Shown: positions 8,234 to 31,772 of the stretch, piece by piece
Layout of the letters: each line of letters opens with the position of its first letter
Numbering within the stretch: the first letter of the stretch is position 1
Assembly (NCBI RefSeq): GCF_010994095.1
Contig: NZ_WJYO01000002.1
Location: forward strand, 62,001 to 126,000
Direction of reading: 5' to 3'
DNA: 64,000 bases
Source: Mumia xiangluensis
GTDB taxonomy: Bacteria > Actinomycetota > Actinomycetes > Propionibacteriales > Nocardioidaceae
Translations under genes and position numbers: made by a program
The notes under the pieces: model-generated
The model's database searches: none
The model's input: only the letters and a program-made list of their open reading frames with translations
Told to the model about the DNA's origin: nothing

Positions 8234-8983
8234 TCACCCCCACCCGCCGAGCAGCGTGCTCCCCCAGATCGCTCCCGCCCACGCACCGAGCACCATGAAC
8301 GGACCGAAAGGGAACGACCGGCGCTCGGCGAGACGCAGCGCCACGAGAGCGATGCCACCGACCGCGCCGAGGACGAACCCGGCGTACGCACCGACGATCA
8401 GCTCCGCCCAGCCCAGGGTGGCGAGGGTGATGGCCACGATCCCCGAGAAGCGCACGTCGCCGTAGCCGAGGCCGCGCGGAGCCACGATCCAGAGCAGGGC
8501 GTAGACGCCAGAGACTCCCGCCCATCCCGCGGCGACGCGGACGAGGACGTCGGTGCCGTCGCCGAGCAGCGCGGCGAGCCCGGCGAGTGCCAGGACGATG
8601 GGATAGGCGGGCAGGACGAGTCGCTTGGGGAGCAGACGCGTGTGCCAGTCGATGAAGGCCAGGGCAGCGCCGAGGACCGCGAACGCCACCCACAGCGGGA
8701 GCGCGGGATCGAGACCGGTGCGCCACCCGACCGGGCCGGCGAGCAACGCGGCGCCGACGGCGAGGACGAGCGGGAGACGTCGGCCCGCGGCAAGCTCGGC
8801 GTACGGGATCTTCGGCGGCGGCGCCGGTGTCGGGGTGTCGGCAGCGTCCCGCTCCCCCGCCTCGTCCGCATCGTCGGGCCCCGGAGCCGGCTCGGGCAGG
8901 CGCGCGATGACACGTGGGGAAAGCAGCCCACCGAGCGCCGCGACGAGGGCGGCGAGCACAGCAGCGACCAGGGGCTCGGGCAC
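8234..8983 (-). CDS. Prepilin peptidase (A24 leader peptidase)
   Basis: A 249-residue polytopic membrane aspartyl protease that removes leader peptides from type IV pilin-like or Tad/Flp pilins. The two catalytic aspartates are Asp112 (AFIDWHTRLLPKRLVLP) and Asp176 in the GYGD motif (GLGYGDVRFSG). There are hydrophobic segments throughout and a charged Pro/Asp-rich loop at about residues 31-58. No CxxC pairs are present, so the N-terminal methyltransferase domain of Gram-negative PilD is missing. A location beside aroC is frequent in actinobacteria. No pilin gene is in the window. Confidence 0.88.
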   Translation of the reverse strand: MPEPLVAAVLAALVAALGGLLSPRVIARLPEPAPGPDDADEAGERDAADTPTPAPPPKIPYAELAAGRRLPLVLAVGAALLAGPVGWRTGLDPALPLWVAFAVLGAALAFIDWHTRLLPKRLVLPAYPIVLALAGLAALLGDGTDVLVRVAAGWAGVSGVYALLWIVAPRGLGYGDVRFSGIVAITLATLGWAELIVGAYAGFVLGAVGGIALVALRLAERRSFPFGPFMVLGAWAGAIWGSTLLGGWG

Positions 8984-9103
8984 GCAGGAACCTTAGCCGT
9001 ACGGCGGCGGCCGAGCGCTGCCGTCGTCCACAGGCGCGGCTCCCGGGAACGGATGTGGACAACCGGCACGGATCTTCGCGACCGTCCGCCACGACCGATA
9101 CTG

Positions 9104-9119
9104 TCGAACACATGTTCGA
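9104..9119 (+). promoter_or_regulatory. LexA (SOS) operator overlapping the HNH nuclease start codon
   Basis: TCGAACACATGTTCGA is an exact match to the actinobacterial LexA box TCGAAC-N4-GTTCGA as I recall it. The ATG at 9112 lies inside the box, so a bound repressor would cover the translation start. GATACT at 9097-9102, just upstream, could be the -10 element. Confidence 0.8.
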
Positions 9120-10911
9120 TCCGCCGACCGACCCGCCTCCACCGCCTGATCCCGCCGCCTCTGATCCCGCACTCTCTGCGCCTTCAAATGCTCCCGCAGG
9201 CTCTCCACGGGCGACCGATCCCACGCAGGCACCGACAGCCGACGAGCTCGACACCCTCGACCGGCTCGCCACGCTCCTCCTCGACCGGGTCCGTGCCGTG
9301 ATCGAGGACGCACGCGCCCGTGCTGTCGCGTCCCCTCGTGGTGCGTTGGAGCTCGGCGCGGGCGAGATCGATCTGGTGACTGCGTGCGAGGAGGTGGTCA
9401 GGATCGCGCAGGGCGTCCAGCTCGACGCGGTGCAGCTGCTCGATGCCCGCCGTCGCTCGGCTCCTGAGCTGGTGCGCGACGAGTCCGTGTTCACGCGATC
9501 GCTCTTCGTCGAGATCGCCCTCGCGCGACAGGTGTCCAGCCCGGCCGGCGAGACCACGTACGCGATGGCGCGCGCCCTCGAGGTTCTCCCCCAGACGCAC
9601 GGCCTGCTGCGCGACGGGACGATCTCCTCGGGCGTCGCAGCAGCCGTGTGCCGAGAGACCACGTTCCTCGCTGCCGACGACCGGCGGCGCGTCGACGCGG
9701 AGATCGCTCCCGCCCTGGCGGACCTGACGCCGCGCCGTGCTGCGGCAGAGGCGCGGCGCCTGGTCCTCGCCACCGACCCCCACGCCGCCTACGCGCGCAC
9801 GGTCCGCGCACGCGAGGGACGGGCCGTCACGTTCAGGCCGGAGCTCGACGCGATGGCATCGCTGACGGTCTACGCACCTGCCGACCAGGTCGTCGCCGCT
9901 TTCGAGCACCTGGACGGGCGGGCGTCGGTGCGGCGGAACGACGGCGACCCGCGCACGATCCGCCAGCTCACGGCAGACCTCGCGATCGAGGCGCTCACCG
10001 GCGCGCAGGTGGCGGCAGACGGTTCGCACACGATCGGCGTCGAGGTGGGCGTCGTCATGCGGCCGGAGTCGCTGTTCAGCGCCGACGCAGCGCCGGCGAC
10101 GCTCTCCGGGTACGGACCGATCCCGGCTGAGCTCGCGCGGCAGCTTGCGGGGTCCGAGCACTCGTGGGTCCGCCGGTTCTTCACTGCTCCGGACGGGCGG
10201 AGCATCAACGACGTGGACCCGCGCGCACGTCGGTTCAGCCGAGCGGTTCGCCGGATCGTCCAGGTCGTCGACGGACAGTGCCGCAGACCGTGGTGCGACT
10301 GCCGCATCCGCGACGTCGACCACATCACCCCGTACGCCCGCGGCGGACTGAGCGTCGTGTCGAACGCGCAGGGAGACTGCCGCACCGACAATCTCGCCAA
10401 AGAGAGCCCCGGCTGGGAGGTCACCTCCGTGACGTCGGCGAACGACACCCTTCCTGACGAGGTGCACTGGCGCACTCCGACCGGCCACGTCCACGTGTCA
10501 CGACGGTCTGAAGGGCGGTCGACGACCGCGCCGGATCCGACGCGGGGCCACACCCGACCTCCCGAACCACCCGACCGACCCCTACCTCCGGATCCGACGC
10601 GGGGCCACACCCGACCTCCGGAGCCACCCGACCAGCCCACACCTCCGGATCCGACGCGGGGCCAGACCCGACCTCCGGAGCCACCCGACCAGCCCACACC
10701 TCCGGATCCGACGCGGGGCCAGACCCGACCTCCGGAGCCACCCGACCGACCCCTACCTCCGGATCCGACGCGGGGCCACACCCGACCTCCGGAGCCACCC
10801 GACCAGCCCACACCTCCGGATCCGACGCGGGGCCAGACCCGACCTCCGGAGCCACCGGACCGAATCCACTCGGTGATGGAGGAGCAGCTCGCGCGCCTGC
10901 TGAGCGCGTGA
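9112..10911 (+). CDS. DUF222/13E12-type HNH endonuclease with C-terminal tandem repeats
   Basis: A 599-residue protein of the DUF222-HNH (REP13E12) family. I start it at the ATG inside the SOS box (MFDPPTDPPPPPDP); upstream in-frame codons lack homology. A Pro/Ala-rich linker is followed by the DUF222 helical region (about residues 45-370). The HNH motif then reads CRRPWCDCRIRDVDHITPYARGG with downstream Asn and Lys. Residues 474-584 are six near-identical 19-residue units (PDPTRGHTRPPEPPDRPLP and variants). It is the only plus-strand gene in this region and splits the aro genes. The biological target of this family is not established. Confidence 0.88.
   Translation: MFDPPTDPPPPPDPAASDPALSAPSNAPAGSPRATDPTQAPTADELDTLDRLATLLLDRVRAVIEDARARAVASPRGALELGAGEIDLVTACEEVVRIAQGVQLDAVQLLDARRRSAPELVRDESVFTRSLFVEIALARQVSSPAGETTYAMARALEVLPQTHGLLRDGTISSGVAAAVCRETTFLAADDRRRVDAEIAPALADLTPRRAAAEARRLVLATDPHAAYARTVRAREGRAVTFRPELDAMASLTVYAPADQVVAAFEHLDGRASVRRNDGDPRTIRQLTADLAIEALTGAQVAADGSHTIGVEVGVVMRPESLFSADAAPATLSGYGPIPAELARQLAGSEHSWVRRFFTAPDGRSINDVDPRARRFSRAVRRIVQVVDGQCRRPWCDCRIRDVDHITPYARGGLSVVSNAQGDCRTDNLAKESPGWEVTSVTSANDTLPDEVHWRTPTGHVHVSRRSEGRSTTAPDPTRGHTRPPEPPDRPLPPDPTRGHTRPPEPPDQPTPPDPTRGQTRPPEPPDQPTPPDPTRGQTRPPEPPDRPLPPDPTRGHTRPPEPPDQPTPPDPTRGQTRPPEPPDRIHSVMEEQLARLLSA
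10531..10864 (+). repeat. 57-bp tandem repeat, six units, in the HNH gene
   Basis: Units begin at 10531, 10588, 10645, 10702, 10759 and 10816, each opening with CCGGATCCGACGCGGGGCCA. Two alternating endings (encoding DRPLP or DQPTP) and an H/Q switch at the seventh residue distinguish the copies. The last unit is cut short. The 57-bp period keeps the reading frame, so unit number can change without disrupting the protein. Confidence 0.95.
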
Positions 10912-10956: not shown

Positions 10957-11781
10957 TCAGTGCGCCGGCAGCGCTCCGATCGCGGCGTCGCGCAGCACCG
11001 AGGCGGGGACGTCGCGTCCGGTCATCAGCCGCACCTGCTCGACCGCCTGGTGCGCGAGGAGGTCGAGGCCGGACACGACCGGGACGGACTCCGCTTGGGC
11101 TGCACGCGCGAGCGGCGTCGGCCAGGGGTCGTAGACCACGTCGAACACGGCATCGCAGCGCGTCACGAGCAGCTGCGCGAAGGGAGCGACGGCGACCGAC
11201 GGGATCGTCGACACGACGATCTGCGCCGACCGAGCCAGGTCAGGGCCCAGGCCCGTCACGTCGACGGCGAGCTGGTCCTCTCCCCCGGCGGCATCGATCA
11301 TCCGCTTCGCGAGGTGTTCACCACGGTCCAGGGAACGGACCGCGATCGTGACACGACGCAGGCCCAGGCGCCGCAACGACGCGACCATCGACTCTGCGGT
11401 GGCACCGGCGCCGAGCACGAGCGCATCCTCGACCTCGTCGATCCCGCGTTCCTGCAGCGCCGCCACACCGCCCGGGACGTCGGTGTTGAACCCGTGGCGA
11501 CCCTCGATGTCGACGATCACCGTGTTGGCGCCTCCGACCTCGCGGACGGCCTCGTCGACGGTGTCGAGGTACGGCAGGACCGCACGCTTCAACGGCATCG
11601 TCAACGAGAGTCCCCGCCACTGCTCGTCGAGCCCGGCCAGGAACGTGCCCACGCCGTCCTCGTCCACCTCGAAACGGTCGTACGACCAGTCGGAGAGGCC
11701 CAGCTCGGCGTACGCGGCCCGGTGGATCACCGGCGACAGCGAGTGCTCGATCGGACTCCCGAGCACCGCGCACCGCGGCAT
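10957..11781 (-). CDS. aroE: Shikimate dehydrogenase
   Basis: A 274-residue NADP-dependent enzyme that reduces 3-dehydroshikimate. The start at 11781 (MPRCAVLGSPIEHSLSPVIH) gives the shikimate-binding SLS block at residues 14-16 and overlaps the mltG stop by one base; an in-frame ATG farther upstream lies inside mltG. The catalytic Lys65 is in LTMPLK. The cofactor loop reads VLGAGATAES, without the more usual GAGGAA, and the NRT motif is replaced by VRS. This resembles the divergent AroE forms of other actinobacteria. Confidence 0.92.
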   Translation of the reverse strand: MPRCAVLGSPIEHSLSPVIHRAAYAELGLSDWSYDRFEVDEDGVGTFLAGLDEQWRGLSLTMPLKRAVLPYLDTVDEAVREVGGANTVIVDIEGRHGFNTDVPGGVAALQERGIDEVEDALVLGAGATAESMVASLRRLGLRRVTIAVRSLDRGEHLAKRMIDAAGGEDQLAVDVTGLGPDLARSAQIVVSTIPSVAVAPFAQLLVTRCDAVFDVVYDPWPTPLARAAQAESVPVVSGLDLLAHQAVEQVRLMTGRDVPASVLRDAAIGALPAH

Positions 11782-12914
11782 CAGCAGCCCCCCTGGTCGC
11801 GGCAGTTCTGGCGCAGCTCCTCCACGTTCTGCTGGTGCTCGGAGTACGTGTCGGCGAACTTCGTCTCGCCGGTCTCCGCATCCACCAGCGTGAAGTAGAG
11901 CCACTCACCGTCCGCCGGGTTCAGCGCAGCGTTCAAGGCCTTCTCGCCGGGGTTGCCGATCGGGCTCGGCGGGAGGCCGGTGTAGAGGTAGGTGTTGTAC
12001 GGCGAGTCGACCTCGCGGGCCTCGGCGCTCGTCCAGATGCTGCCGTCCTTGCCGCTGACGTAGTGGATGGTCGAGTCCATCTGGAGCGGCATCCCTGCGT
12101 CGAGACGGTTGTAGATCACCCGGGCGACCTTGTCGTAGTCCGCAGTCCCCGCCTCGGCCTGGACGATGCTGGCGACGACCCGGGCGTCGTGCCCGGAGAT
12201 GCCGAGCGCCTTCGCGTGGCCGTCGAGGTCGAGCTCCTTGTCGAGCGCGACCGACTTCGAGACCATCTCCTGGAACAACGAGAGCGGCGTCGTGTCCGGC
12301 CCGACCGTGTACGTCGCCGGGTAGAGGTATCCCTCCGGGTTCCCCTCCGCCGCTGGCGGCAGCCCCAGCTCCGGGCTCGCGAGCGCGGCATTCACCTGTT
12401 TCTTCGTGAACTCGGTGTTCTTCACCATCGACGCCACGACCTGATCGACGCGCGCCCCCTCGGGCACACCGACCGTCGAGTCCACGCGGCTCTCGGGGTT
12501 GATCAGCGCAGCGACCGCGTCATCAGCAGCCATCTGGGTCTTCAGCTCGTAGAACCCCGGCTGGACCTGGTTGATCTCCGGAGCCCCGGCGGCAGCTGAC
12601 AGGAACGCGTCGACGCTCGCGACGACGTCCTGCGCCTTCAGTTCACGCCCGATCCCGGCGACCGTGTCGCCCTTGCTCACCTCGACGACGACGCTCCCGG
12701 TGCCCGGGCCCGGATAGTCCTCGGGACCACCGAAGAAGTCGTTGGCGAGCCCCACCACCTTCGACAGGCCGAGATAGCCGGCGACGCAGACCGCCGCGAT
12801 GATCAGCAGGATGAAGAAGCAGCCCGGACCACCACGACGCTTCTTCTCGCGGCGCGCCGCGCGGTGGCCGGAAGGACGTCGTTCACGCTCTGGCATGAGA
12901 CCCAAGTCGCTCAC
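11781..12914 (-). CDS. mltG: Endolytic murein transglycosylase MltG
   Basis: A 377-residue membrane-anchored enzyme that cuts nascent glycan strands and acts as a terminase for peptidoglycan polymerisation. A basic N-terminal tail (about residues 8-30) precedes one membrane segment (about 33-52). A LysM-like stretch at about 74-145 comes next, followed by the YceG catalytic domain. The catalytic Glu254 lies in ASIVQAEAG, followed by VARVIYNRLDAGMPLQMDST. It starts with GTG overlapping ruvX by 4 bases. The order alaS-ruvX-mltG-aroE is widely conserved. Confidence 0.95.
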   Translation of the reverse strand: MSDLGLMPERERRPSGHRAARREKKRRGGPGCFFILLIIAAVCVAGYLGLSKVVGLANDFFGGPEDYPGPGTGSVVVEVSKGDTVAGIGRELKAQDVVASVDAFLSAAAGAPEINQVQPGFYELKTQMAADDAVAALINPESRVDSTVGVPEGARVDQVVASMVKNTEFTKKQVNAALASPELGLPPAAEGNPEGYLYPATYTVGPDTTPLSLFQEMVSKSVALDKELDLDGHAKALGISGHDARVVASIVQAEAGTADYDKVARVIYNRLDAGMPLQMDSTIHYVSGKDGSIWTSAEAREVDSPYNTYLYTGLPPSPIGNPGEKALNAALNPADGEWLYFTLVDAETGETKFADTYSEHQQNVEELRQNCRDQGGC

Positions 12915-30445: not shown

Positions 30446-31075
30446 TTACGCCTTCGACAGCGATCGCAGTGCGGCGCGCAGCAGCTCGCCGACATCGACG
30501 CCCTTGGCGCTCTCAGCCTGCGCTTCCGCGGTCGGGGAGACGGCGGCGACCGCCGTCTCGGCCTCGCGCGCGCTCCAGCCGAGTCCGACCAGGGCGCCGT
30601 GGACCTGCGCCCGCCAGTCGTCCTCGCTCGGTGGGGCTGCAGGCGCGGCGGCGGCCGTACGGGAGACGAGCGCGGCAGCGCCGATCCGGTCCTTGAGCTC
30701 CAGCACGATGCGCTGGGCGCCCTTCCTGCCGATCCCCGGGACCTTCGTCAGCGCGGCGAGGTCCTCGTGGGCGACGGCCTGGCGGAGGCCCTCGGCGCCG
30801 AGGACCGCGATGATCGCCTGCGCGACCTTCGGGCCGACGCCGCTCGCGGTCTGCGCCAGCTCGAAGGTGTCGCGGGCGTCGTCGTCGGCGAACCCGTACA
30901 GCGTCATCGAGTCCTCGCGGACGACCAGACTCGTGGCGACCTGCGCCTGCTCGCCGTGCCTCAGCTCGGCGATCGTGCCGGGGGTGCACTGCACGAGCAT
31001 GCCGACGCCTCCCACGTCGAGGACCGCCGAGTCGAGGCCGGTGGACGCGACAGTGCCGCGGACGAAGGCGATCAT
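30446..31075 (-). CDS. ruvA: Holliday junction DNA-binding protein RuvA
   Basis: A 209-residue junction-binding subunit. The OB-fold domain begins [20 protein letters not shown]. The helix-hairpin-helix domains contain [18 protein letters not shown] and [21 protein letters not shown], and an Ala-rich linker leads to the RuvB-interacting domain III. It overlaps the ruvC stop by 4 bases. All domains are present and the length is normal. Confidence 0.96.
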
Positions 31076-31734
31076 CGTGGCTTCCCTTCAGGGTGGGGGC
31101 GGGGAGGGTCGACGCGAGCGGACCTGGGGCGAGGAGGCACGGCCGCGGGTGCGCTGGGGATGCGGGAGCGGATCGGCTCGGCGGCCGTGCGTACGGGGGC
31201 GGACCCGCGGCGAGCGGCGGCGACCGCCGCGTCGAGGCGGCTCACCGACGTGCCGCGCCAGACGTGGCAGATGGCAAGTGCGAGGGCGTCCGCCGCGTCG
31301 GCGGGCCTGGGTGCGCGGTCGAGGCCGAGGAGCCGCGTCACCATCGCGGTGACCTGCGCCTTGTCGGCGCGCCCGTTGCCGGTCACGGCGGCCTTCACCT
31401 CGCTGGGCGTGTGGAGGGCGACCGGGATGCCGTGACGCGCGGCGACCACCATCGCCACGCCGCTGGCCTGTGCCGTCCCCATCACCGTCGAGACGTTGTT
31501 CTGGGAGAAGACTCGCTCCACCGCGACGACGTCCGGCTGGTATGCCGCGATCGCCTCGGCGAGCCCCTGCTCGATCGCGAGCAGCCGGTGAGCGACGTCG
31601 TCGTCGGACGGGGTCCTGATGACGTCCACGGACACGGCACGGAGCGTACGTCCGACGCGACCGTCGACGACGCCGACACCGCACCGCGTCAGGCCGGGGT
31701 CGACACCGAGGACACGCAGGGTGCCGGCGCTCAT
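31072..31734 (-). CDS. ruvC: Holliday junction resolvase RuvC
   Basis: A 220-residue RNase H-fold endonuclease that resolves four-way junctions. I start it at the ATG at 31734 ([19 protein letters not shown]), with GAGG just upstream; an ATG at 31764 lies inside the LexA-type box and would add ten unrelated residues. Catalytic acidic residues are Asp12, the Glu in [11 protein letters not shown], and the Asp pair in [10 protein letters not shown]. The C-terminal 35 residues are Pro/Arg-rich, longer than in E. coli. It heads ruvCAB. Confidence 0.95.
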
Positions 31735-31756
31735 GCCGCCTCGTACGAGGCCGTGG

Positions 31757-31772
31757 GCGAACACATGTTCGA
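31757..31772 (-). promoter_or_regulatory. LexA (SOS) operator upstream of ruvCAB
   Basis: Read on the minus strand, TCGAACATGTGTTCGC matches the actinobacterial LexA box TCGAAC-N4-GTTCGA at all but the last base. It lies 23 bases upstream of the ruvC ATG. TAGGGT at 31774-31779, immediately before it, is a plausible -10 box, so LexA would block the promoter. Confidence 0.7.

Follow-up and report, generated by a model that had tools for sequence, protein, structure and literature searches.

The window, i.e. the whole 64-kb stretch of DNA of the soil actinobacterium Mumia that was analysed, includes on its forward strand (9112..10911) an open reading frame for a protein of 599 aa (P0001) that starts MFD and that, by family comparison, is an HNH-nuclease-like, divergent relative of DUF222 proteins. 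A helical DUF222-like region is predicted by the structural model for residues 43–235 (9238..9816, forward strand). It is followed by an HNH/HNN motif at residues 390–431 (10279..10404, forward strand) made up of C390-x4-C395, D403-H404, N418, C423, N427, K430 and E431, and by a Pro-rich tail encoded by 5.9 copies of a 57-bp tandem repeat (10531..10869, forward strand) that is not found in the aligned orthologues. The neighbours are a divergent type IV leader peptidase gene (8234..8983, reverse strand; PF01478 in Pfam) and a convergent gene (10957..11904, reverse strand) read as aroE, a name given by eye from the sequence. A candidate LexA operator (SOS box), TCGAACACATGTTCGA, lies across the start codon at 9104..9119, with the ATG (9112–9114) at box position 9.

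All six Mumia genomes searched have a member of the same subfamily, and the source genome has four; the closest named relatives are Mumia sp. zg.B17 and M. quercus. In five of the six genomes, the source genome included, the gene occupies the same aroE-peptidase locus, which suggests vertical inheritance; in the sixth, the best match (L023) adjoins neither aroE nor the peptidase gene. The five syntenic copies, the window's included, carry the box with 0, 0, 1, 2 and 1 mismatches (L021 has 2, L020 and L022 have 1 each), and in all five the putative -10 element and the box are kept while the upstream flank, as judged by eye, is not. L020 combines its LexA box with a PafBC site of 8 of 9.

Family kinship and predicted fold

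The window protein had no match to the PF02720 (DUF222) Pfam model or, at E up to 0.1, to NCBIfam, and its match to HNH (PF01844) was below threshold at 14.4 bits as compared with a cut-off of 21.4. Nor was its row among the 25 of 51 domain rows that match PF02720 at E up to 0.5. In contrast, comparison of the window profile with a profile of ten DUF222 proteins by hhalign gave a probability of 99.4% (E 1.4e-21) over 348 columns, the HNH part included. Among ten Mumia relatives scanned, two (L027 and L034), both 44–46% identical to the window protein, pass PF02720, and three (L020, L024 and L029) are above the PF01844 cut-off. Thus, by its relatives and by profile comparison, the window protein is homologous to DUF222/HNH proteins at a distant level, and it is best called a DUF222 relative and not a formal member, given the missing PF02720 match. 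The name DUF222/HNH nuclease used in the preliminary description therefore holds in the sense of distant homology and not in the sense of formal domain assignment.

H404, N418, N427, C390, C395 and C423 are invariant, as is the motif as a whole, in the 16 relatives of alignment A1, and conservation of N427 falls below 90% in the wider 51-row alignment A2. The rows of both alignments were chosen; broken copies (L023 and L028) were kept out of A1, and A2 was taken mostly from genes whose start lies in a box. The fourth zinc-ligand position of the window protein is Asp; Cys occupies this position in many HNH proteins. The window protein had no matches in PADLOC or PHROGs, in which one relative gave a weak type IIG restriction match (E 0.0034) and L034 gave two weak HNH matches, respectively.

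The AlphaFold model has a helical core of high confidence and an end that is HNH-like, with a mean pLDDT of 85.6 for the protein and 96.4 for the domain alone. In the predicted model, the HNH end resembles the IscB and McrA nucleases, and residues about 95–225 resemble the ParB/Noc DNA-binding domain, for which sequence support is weak. When the domain alone was compared with solved structures, the top 12 rows were all ParB, Spo0J or Noc DNA-binding domains (Z 6.0–8.1), and the next unrelated row had Z 5.1, or 6.2 in the other structure comparison. Z values of 6.0–8.1 can reflect a common helical arrangement. Although the ParB/Spo0J/Noc domain superposes on the helical core, hhalign of the DUF222-like region with ParB-type profiles gave probabilities of only 0.3 to 2.3%, which are not significant. 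The comparison of A3 with ParB was not above 30 shuffles, and two other alignments, at 1.7 to 2.3%, were slightly above 100 shuffles each. A profile search of solved structures placed Spo0J at E 2.9, below designed helical proteins, and Foldseek against the PDB at E up to 0.001 gave no match for either model. A ParB-like DNA-recognition fold of the DUF222 core is therefore put forward as a lead only; if it is true, the family would comprise DNA-recognising nucleases rather than general ones.

LexA box and promoter geometry

The exact palindrome TCGAACNNNNGTTCGA (TCGAAC-N4-GTTCGA) occurs at a single site in the 64-kb window, 9104–9119, where 0.00 sites were expected and none of 100 shuffles contained one. 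The perfect LexA box of the preliminary description, and its statement that the box includes the ATG, were thus borne out letter by letter. With one mismatch allowed (0.13 sites expected), one additional site was found at 31757..31772 over the start of ruvC (31072..31764, reverse strand). This second box serves as an internal positive control, since ruvC is given as a LexA target in Streptomyces venezuelae (PMC9380542). A GTG within the ruvC box is in frame with an upstream extension of RuvC.

Genome-wide, CGAAC-N4-GTTCG was found at 11 sites, as compared with 3 for a control pattern read backwards. Two of the 11 look like chance occurrences (L007 and the intragenic L008). The near-exact boxes lie beside recA, lexA, dinB, an AlkB-like oxygenase gene, imuA', ruvC and the window HNH gene, and others adjoin a second DUF222 gene and an amino-acid permease gene. 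In the last case the box (L017:1501–1514) is at the upstream end of the permease frame, an unexpected SOS candidate. The same genome encodes LexA (L016; PF01726 and PF00717) and RecA (L015; PF00154), and both genes have boxes of their own. As the boxed genes are the core SOS set, LexA of the Mumia genome very probably reads this motif, and the 9104–9119 site is a credible working operator.

A putative -10 element, TACTGT (TANNNT), is located at 9099..9104 on the forward strand and overlaps the box by a single base, the last of the element, and the same register is seen in relatives. A TANNNT hexamer ending on box base 1 is present in 45 of the 55 surveyed genes whose start lies in the box (see below). 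Given this spacing, transcription of the window gene is inferred to start at the A of the ATG or at a base adjoining it, giving a leaderless mRNA, and the N-terminus of the protein, mostly MF[DE] in relatives, would be spelled by the operator itself.

Survey of related genes

The upstream regions of 191 related genes (154 plus 37) were examined. Nine rows had been removed as duplicates or pieces of one gene (L033, L037, L038, L040, L071–L074 and L145), and the repeats L228 and L229 were skipped. Most of the loci are those that scored best, and the 37 regions added later were picked by hand from a longer list and not at random. Among these 191 genes, which are non-independent in that they include paralogues and related genomes (one species may occur in both genome collections), a box with no more than one mismatch is present in 87 and absent from 104. 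The backwards control was found in none of the 191, and the rest of the first 134 loci contained nine such boxes in 648,606 positions. Box carriers include Mumia, Nocardioides, Frankia, Pseudonocardia, Mycobacterium, Cellulomonas, Millisia, Antrihabitans and Skermania. The preliminary description had proposed that SOS control is conserved in this genus distant from mycobacteria, and had called for a survey of boxes upstream of DUF222 genes; the box does recur across the class, Mumia included, but in fewer than half of the relatives.

The start codon is at exactly box position 9 in 55 of the 191 genes, and this position is the first in-frame ATG or GTG in 53 of the 87 boxed relatives. Of the 55 proteins, 40 begin with MF[DE]. 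When genes were selected without reference to the left half of the box, by an in-frame [AG]TG-TT[CT]-GA start only, 56 of 154 were retained; in 38 of these 56 the left half matches TCGAAC with one mismatch or none, whereas about 0.26 would be expected by arithmetic with equal bases. As the left half is non-coding, the palindrome, and not just the protein, is conserved. Among the top PF02720 loci of the bacterial family, 12 of 30 are boxed, in no case with the start inside; hence, a start-codon geometry common to all DUF222 genes was ruled out.

A DUF222 match was found in 193 of 197 Nocardioidaceae genomes sampled, many of which have at least 11 matches. Genome G174 has several DUF222 matches of near-equal frame length and score. 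Some paralogues look broken: L023 has an in-frame TAG, and L028 and L033 are one gene split over two frames. Relatives were also found in 8 plasmid records and 5 phage-like contig records. A start-codon box on plasmid copies was also considered and found no support, as none of the four plasmid matches examined, out of eight, has its start in a box; one of the four, L175, has a box with one mismatch upstream.

Several relatives with a poor LexA box share TGTCRG near -26. The RecA-independent promoter motif is described in PMC5656591 as tTGTCRgtg-8 nt-TannnT, and PafBC is described in PMC11804915 as contacting the -26 motif. With at least 7 of 9 motif matches, an 8-nt gap and TANNNT required, 24 of the 154 relatives matched, as compared with 0–2 at ten other gaps, 0 for the reversed motif and 1 for its reverse complement. 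The prediction was then fixed before the 37 further regions were fetched, of which 10 matched at gap 8 and 0–1 at other gaps. In total, 34 of 191 relatives have the motif at the exact 8-nt spacing, and in 32 of these 34 an in-frame start is found 6 or 7 nt past the -10 element. Both damage motifs are present in 17 of the 191 relatives, either one in 104 and neither in 87.

The corresponding place in the window gene (9082..9090, forward strand) is degenerate. Unlike the 34 relatives that share the PafBC-type promoter, it scores 4 of 9, and therefore only LexA control is claimed for the window gene. The Mumia genome has a pair of WYL genes about 1.2 kb away from a gene of the Pup-ligase family; HTH_PafC is present in one of the pair. 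The exact PafBC core was found at 5 sites in this genome and its control at 0; recA and one DUF222 gene are among the 5. Exact PafBC-type cores precede other Mumia genes (L230, L231 and L232, near position 1501), with the start codon 6–7 nt after the -10 element in L230 and L231. The word HNH is absent from the main texts of PMC5656591, PMC11804915 and PMC6789036. In PMC8151990, one of two papers found for PafBC together with HNH, the passage on HNH concerns RecA-dependent genes.

Proposed role and known systems

The window gene is likely to be an SOS gene that LexA represses and that has a leaderless promoter, and its product is a probable HNN-type DNA endonuclease, as judged from sequence. 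LexA bound at 9104–9119 would lie over the transcription start and the start codon as well as the end of the -10 element, and is therefore proposed to block RNA polymerase. Upon DNA damage, RecA would be activated and LexA would cut itself. The transcript would then begin at the A of the ATG or right beside it and be translated without a leader. The product would combine a probable HNN-type nuclease with an N-terminal domain that is helical and may bind DNA, and is inferred to act in damage processing or in damage-triggered self-cutting. Since the box-over-start arrangement is found in many related actinobacterial genes, these DUF222/HNH genes are probably also switched on by DNA damage.

What the nuclease would do after induction is less certain. 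It is possible, though we favour it less, that the gene is an SOS-controlled, damage-triggered mobile or selfish nuclease, homing-like as 13E12 repeats might be, and not a repair protein. The many paralogues per genome, the broken-looking copies and the few relatives on plasmids and phage-like contigs point in this direction, whereas the shared aroE-peptidase locus suggests vertical inheritance and the conserved catalytic residues suggest selection for activity. A selfish past fits the broken copies and numerous paralogues, and a host function fits the conservation of the locus and of the residues. Programmed death, in which the SOS-induced nuclease fragments its own chromosome after severe damage, is rather unlikely. 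It draws on the HNN nuclease MSMEG_1275, which is reported in PMC9416677 to cleave M. smegmatis DNA and to kill when over-expressed, and which has the H-14-N-9-N spacing of the window protein. However, only one of five HNH proteins over-expressed in that study was lethal, the regulator there is of the ArsR type, and the comparison with the window protein is one of motif spacing.

Two further explanations concern the box itself. It is improbable that the box serves the divergent leader-peptidase gene, instead of or besides the HNH gene: the operator is symmetric and the peptidase start is about 120 bp away on the opposite strand, but relatives at other loci show the same fixed spacing to the HNH start, as seen in the 55 genes with the start at position 9. 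Least probable of all is that the motif mainly reflects coding and promoter constraint (an MF[DE] start plus a -10 element), for although the right half ATGTTCGA is wholly spelled by MF[DE], whose codons may be retained because the protein needs them, and is kept alone in some relatives (e.g. L002, L005 and L039), the non-coding left half is retained in most genes selected without it, a near-exact palindrome is found at recA and lexA, and the top PF02720 loci can be boxed with no start in the box.

Beyond the LexA-repressed, leaderless SOS gene preferred here, a wider reading is offered tentatively and is doubtful as a whole. The family may consist of class-wide damage-inducible nucleases that join a ParB/Noc-like domain to an HNN nuclease and share a very compact leaderless promoter open to two independent damage sensors, PafBC at -26 and LexA over the start codon. 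As the operator forms part of the reading frame, repressor binding may, speculatively, have shaped the MF[DE] start of the protein.

Nocardioidaceae have DUF222/HNH genes in very large numbers, yet Pfam lists DUF222 as a domain of unknown function. One promoter layout that ties many of these genes to two damage pathways makes this function testable, and an MF[DE] N-terminus after TCGAACNN provides a rule that flags a likely LexA operator and a leaderless start. The preliminary description was incomplete, as it included neither the leaderless geometry, nor its recurrence in relatives, nor the PafBC-type promoter in some of them. Three points are new as far as the literature searches show: that the start-codon geometry recurs, that part of the family has a PafBC-type promoter, and the lead towards ParB; positions of boxes may already be given in Davis 2002 and Smollett 2012.

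That HNH genes as such are under SOS control is already known in M. tuberculosis, and the earlier statement that the 13E12/DUF222 family is SOS-induced in mycobacteria is in print: 13E12-family HNH genes are given among inferred LexA targets in PMC4181829, and five putative HNH endonucleases are among the RecA-dependent genes after mitomycin C in PMC8151990, in a passage that does not use the name 13E12. The main text of the S. venezuelae LexA paper makes no mention of HNH. The 13E12/REP13E12 genes of M. tuberculosis are thus an HNH family under LexA control, as proposed in Mumia, and a Mycobacterium relative (L132) has a box with the start-codon geometry. The window protein differs in belonging to a divergent subfamily and in being missed by the Pfam DUF222 model; the box of its gene lies exactly over the start codon.

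MSMEG_1275 (H258, N272 and N281), in which H and the first N are reported to be needed for killing (PMC9416677), has catalytic spacing equal to that of the window protein; its gene is under an ArsR-type factor, whereas LexA is the proposed repressor in Mumia. A parallel to the proposed promoter is lexA of M. tuberculosis, likewise a leaderless SOS gene, in which transcription and translation starts are reported to coincide (PMC2897130). The start of lexA was mapped experimentally, whereas that of the Mumia gene is deduced from the geometry of its -10 element and box.
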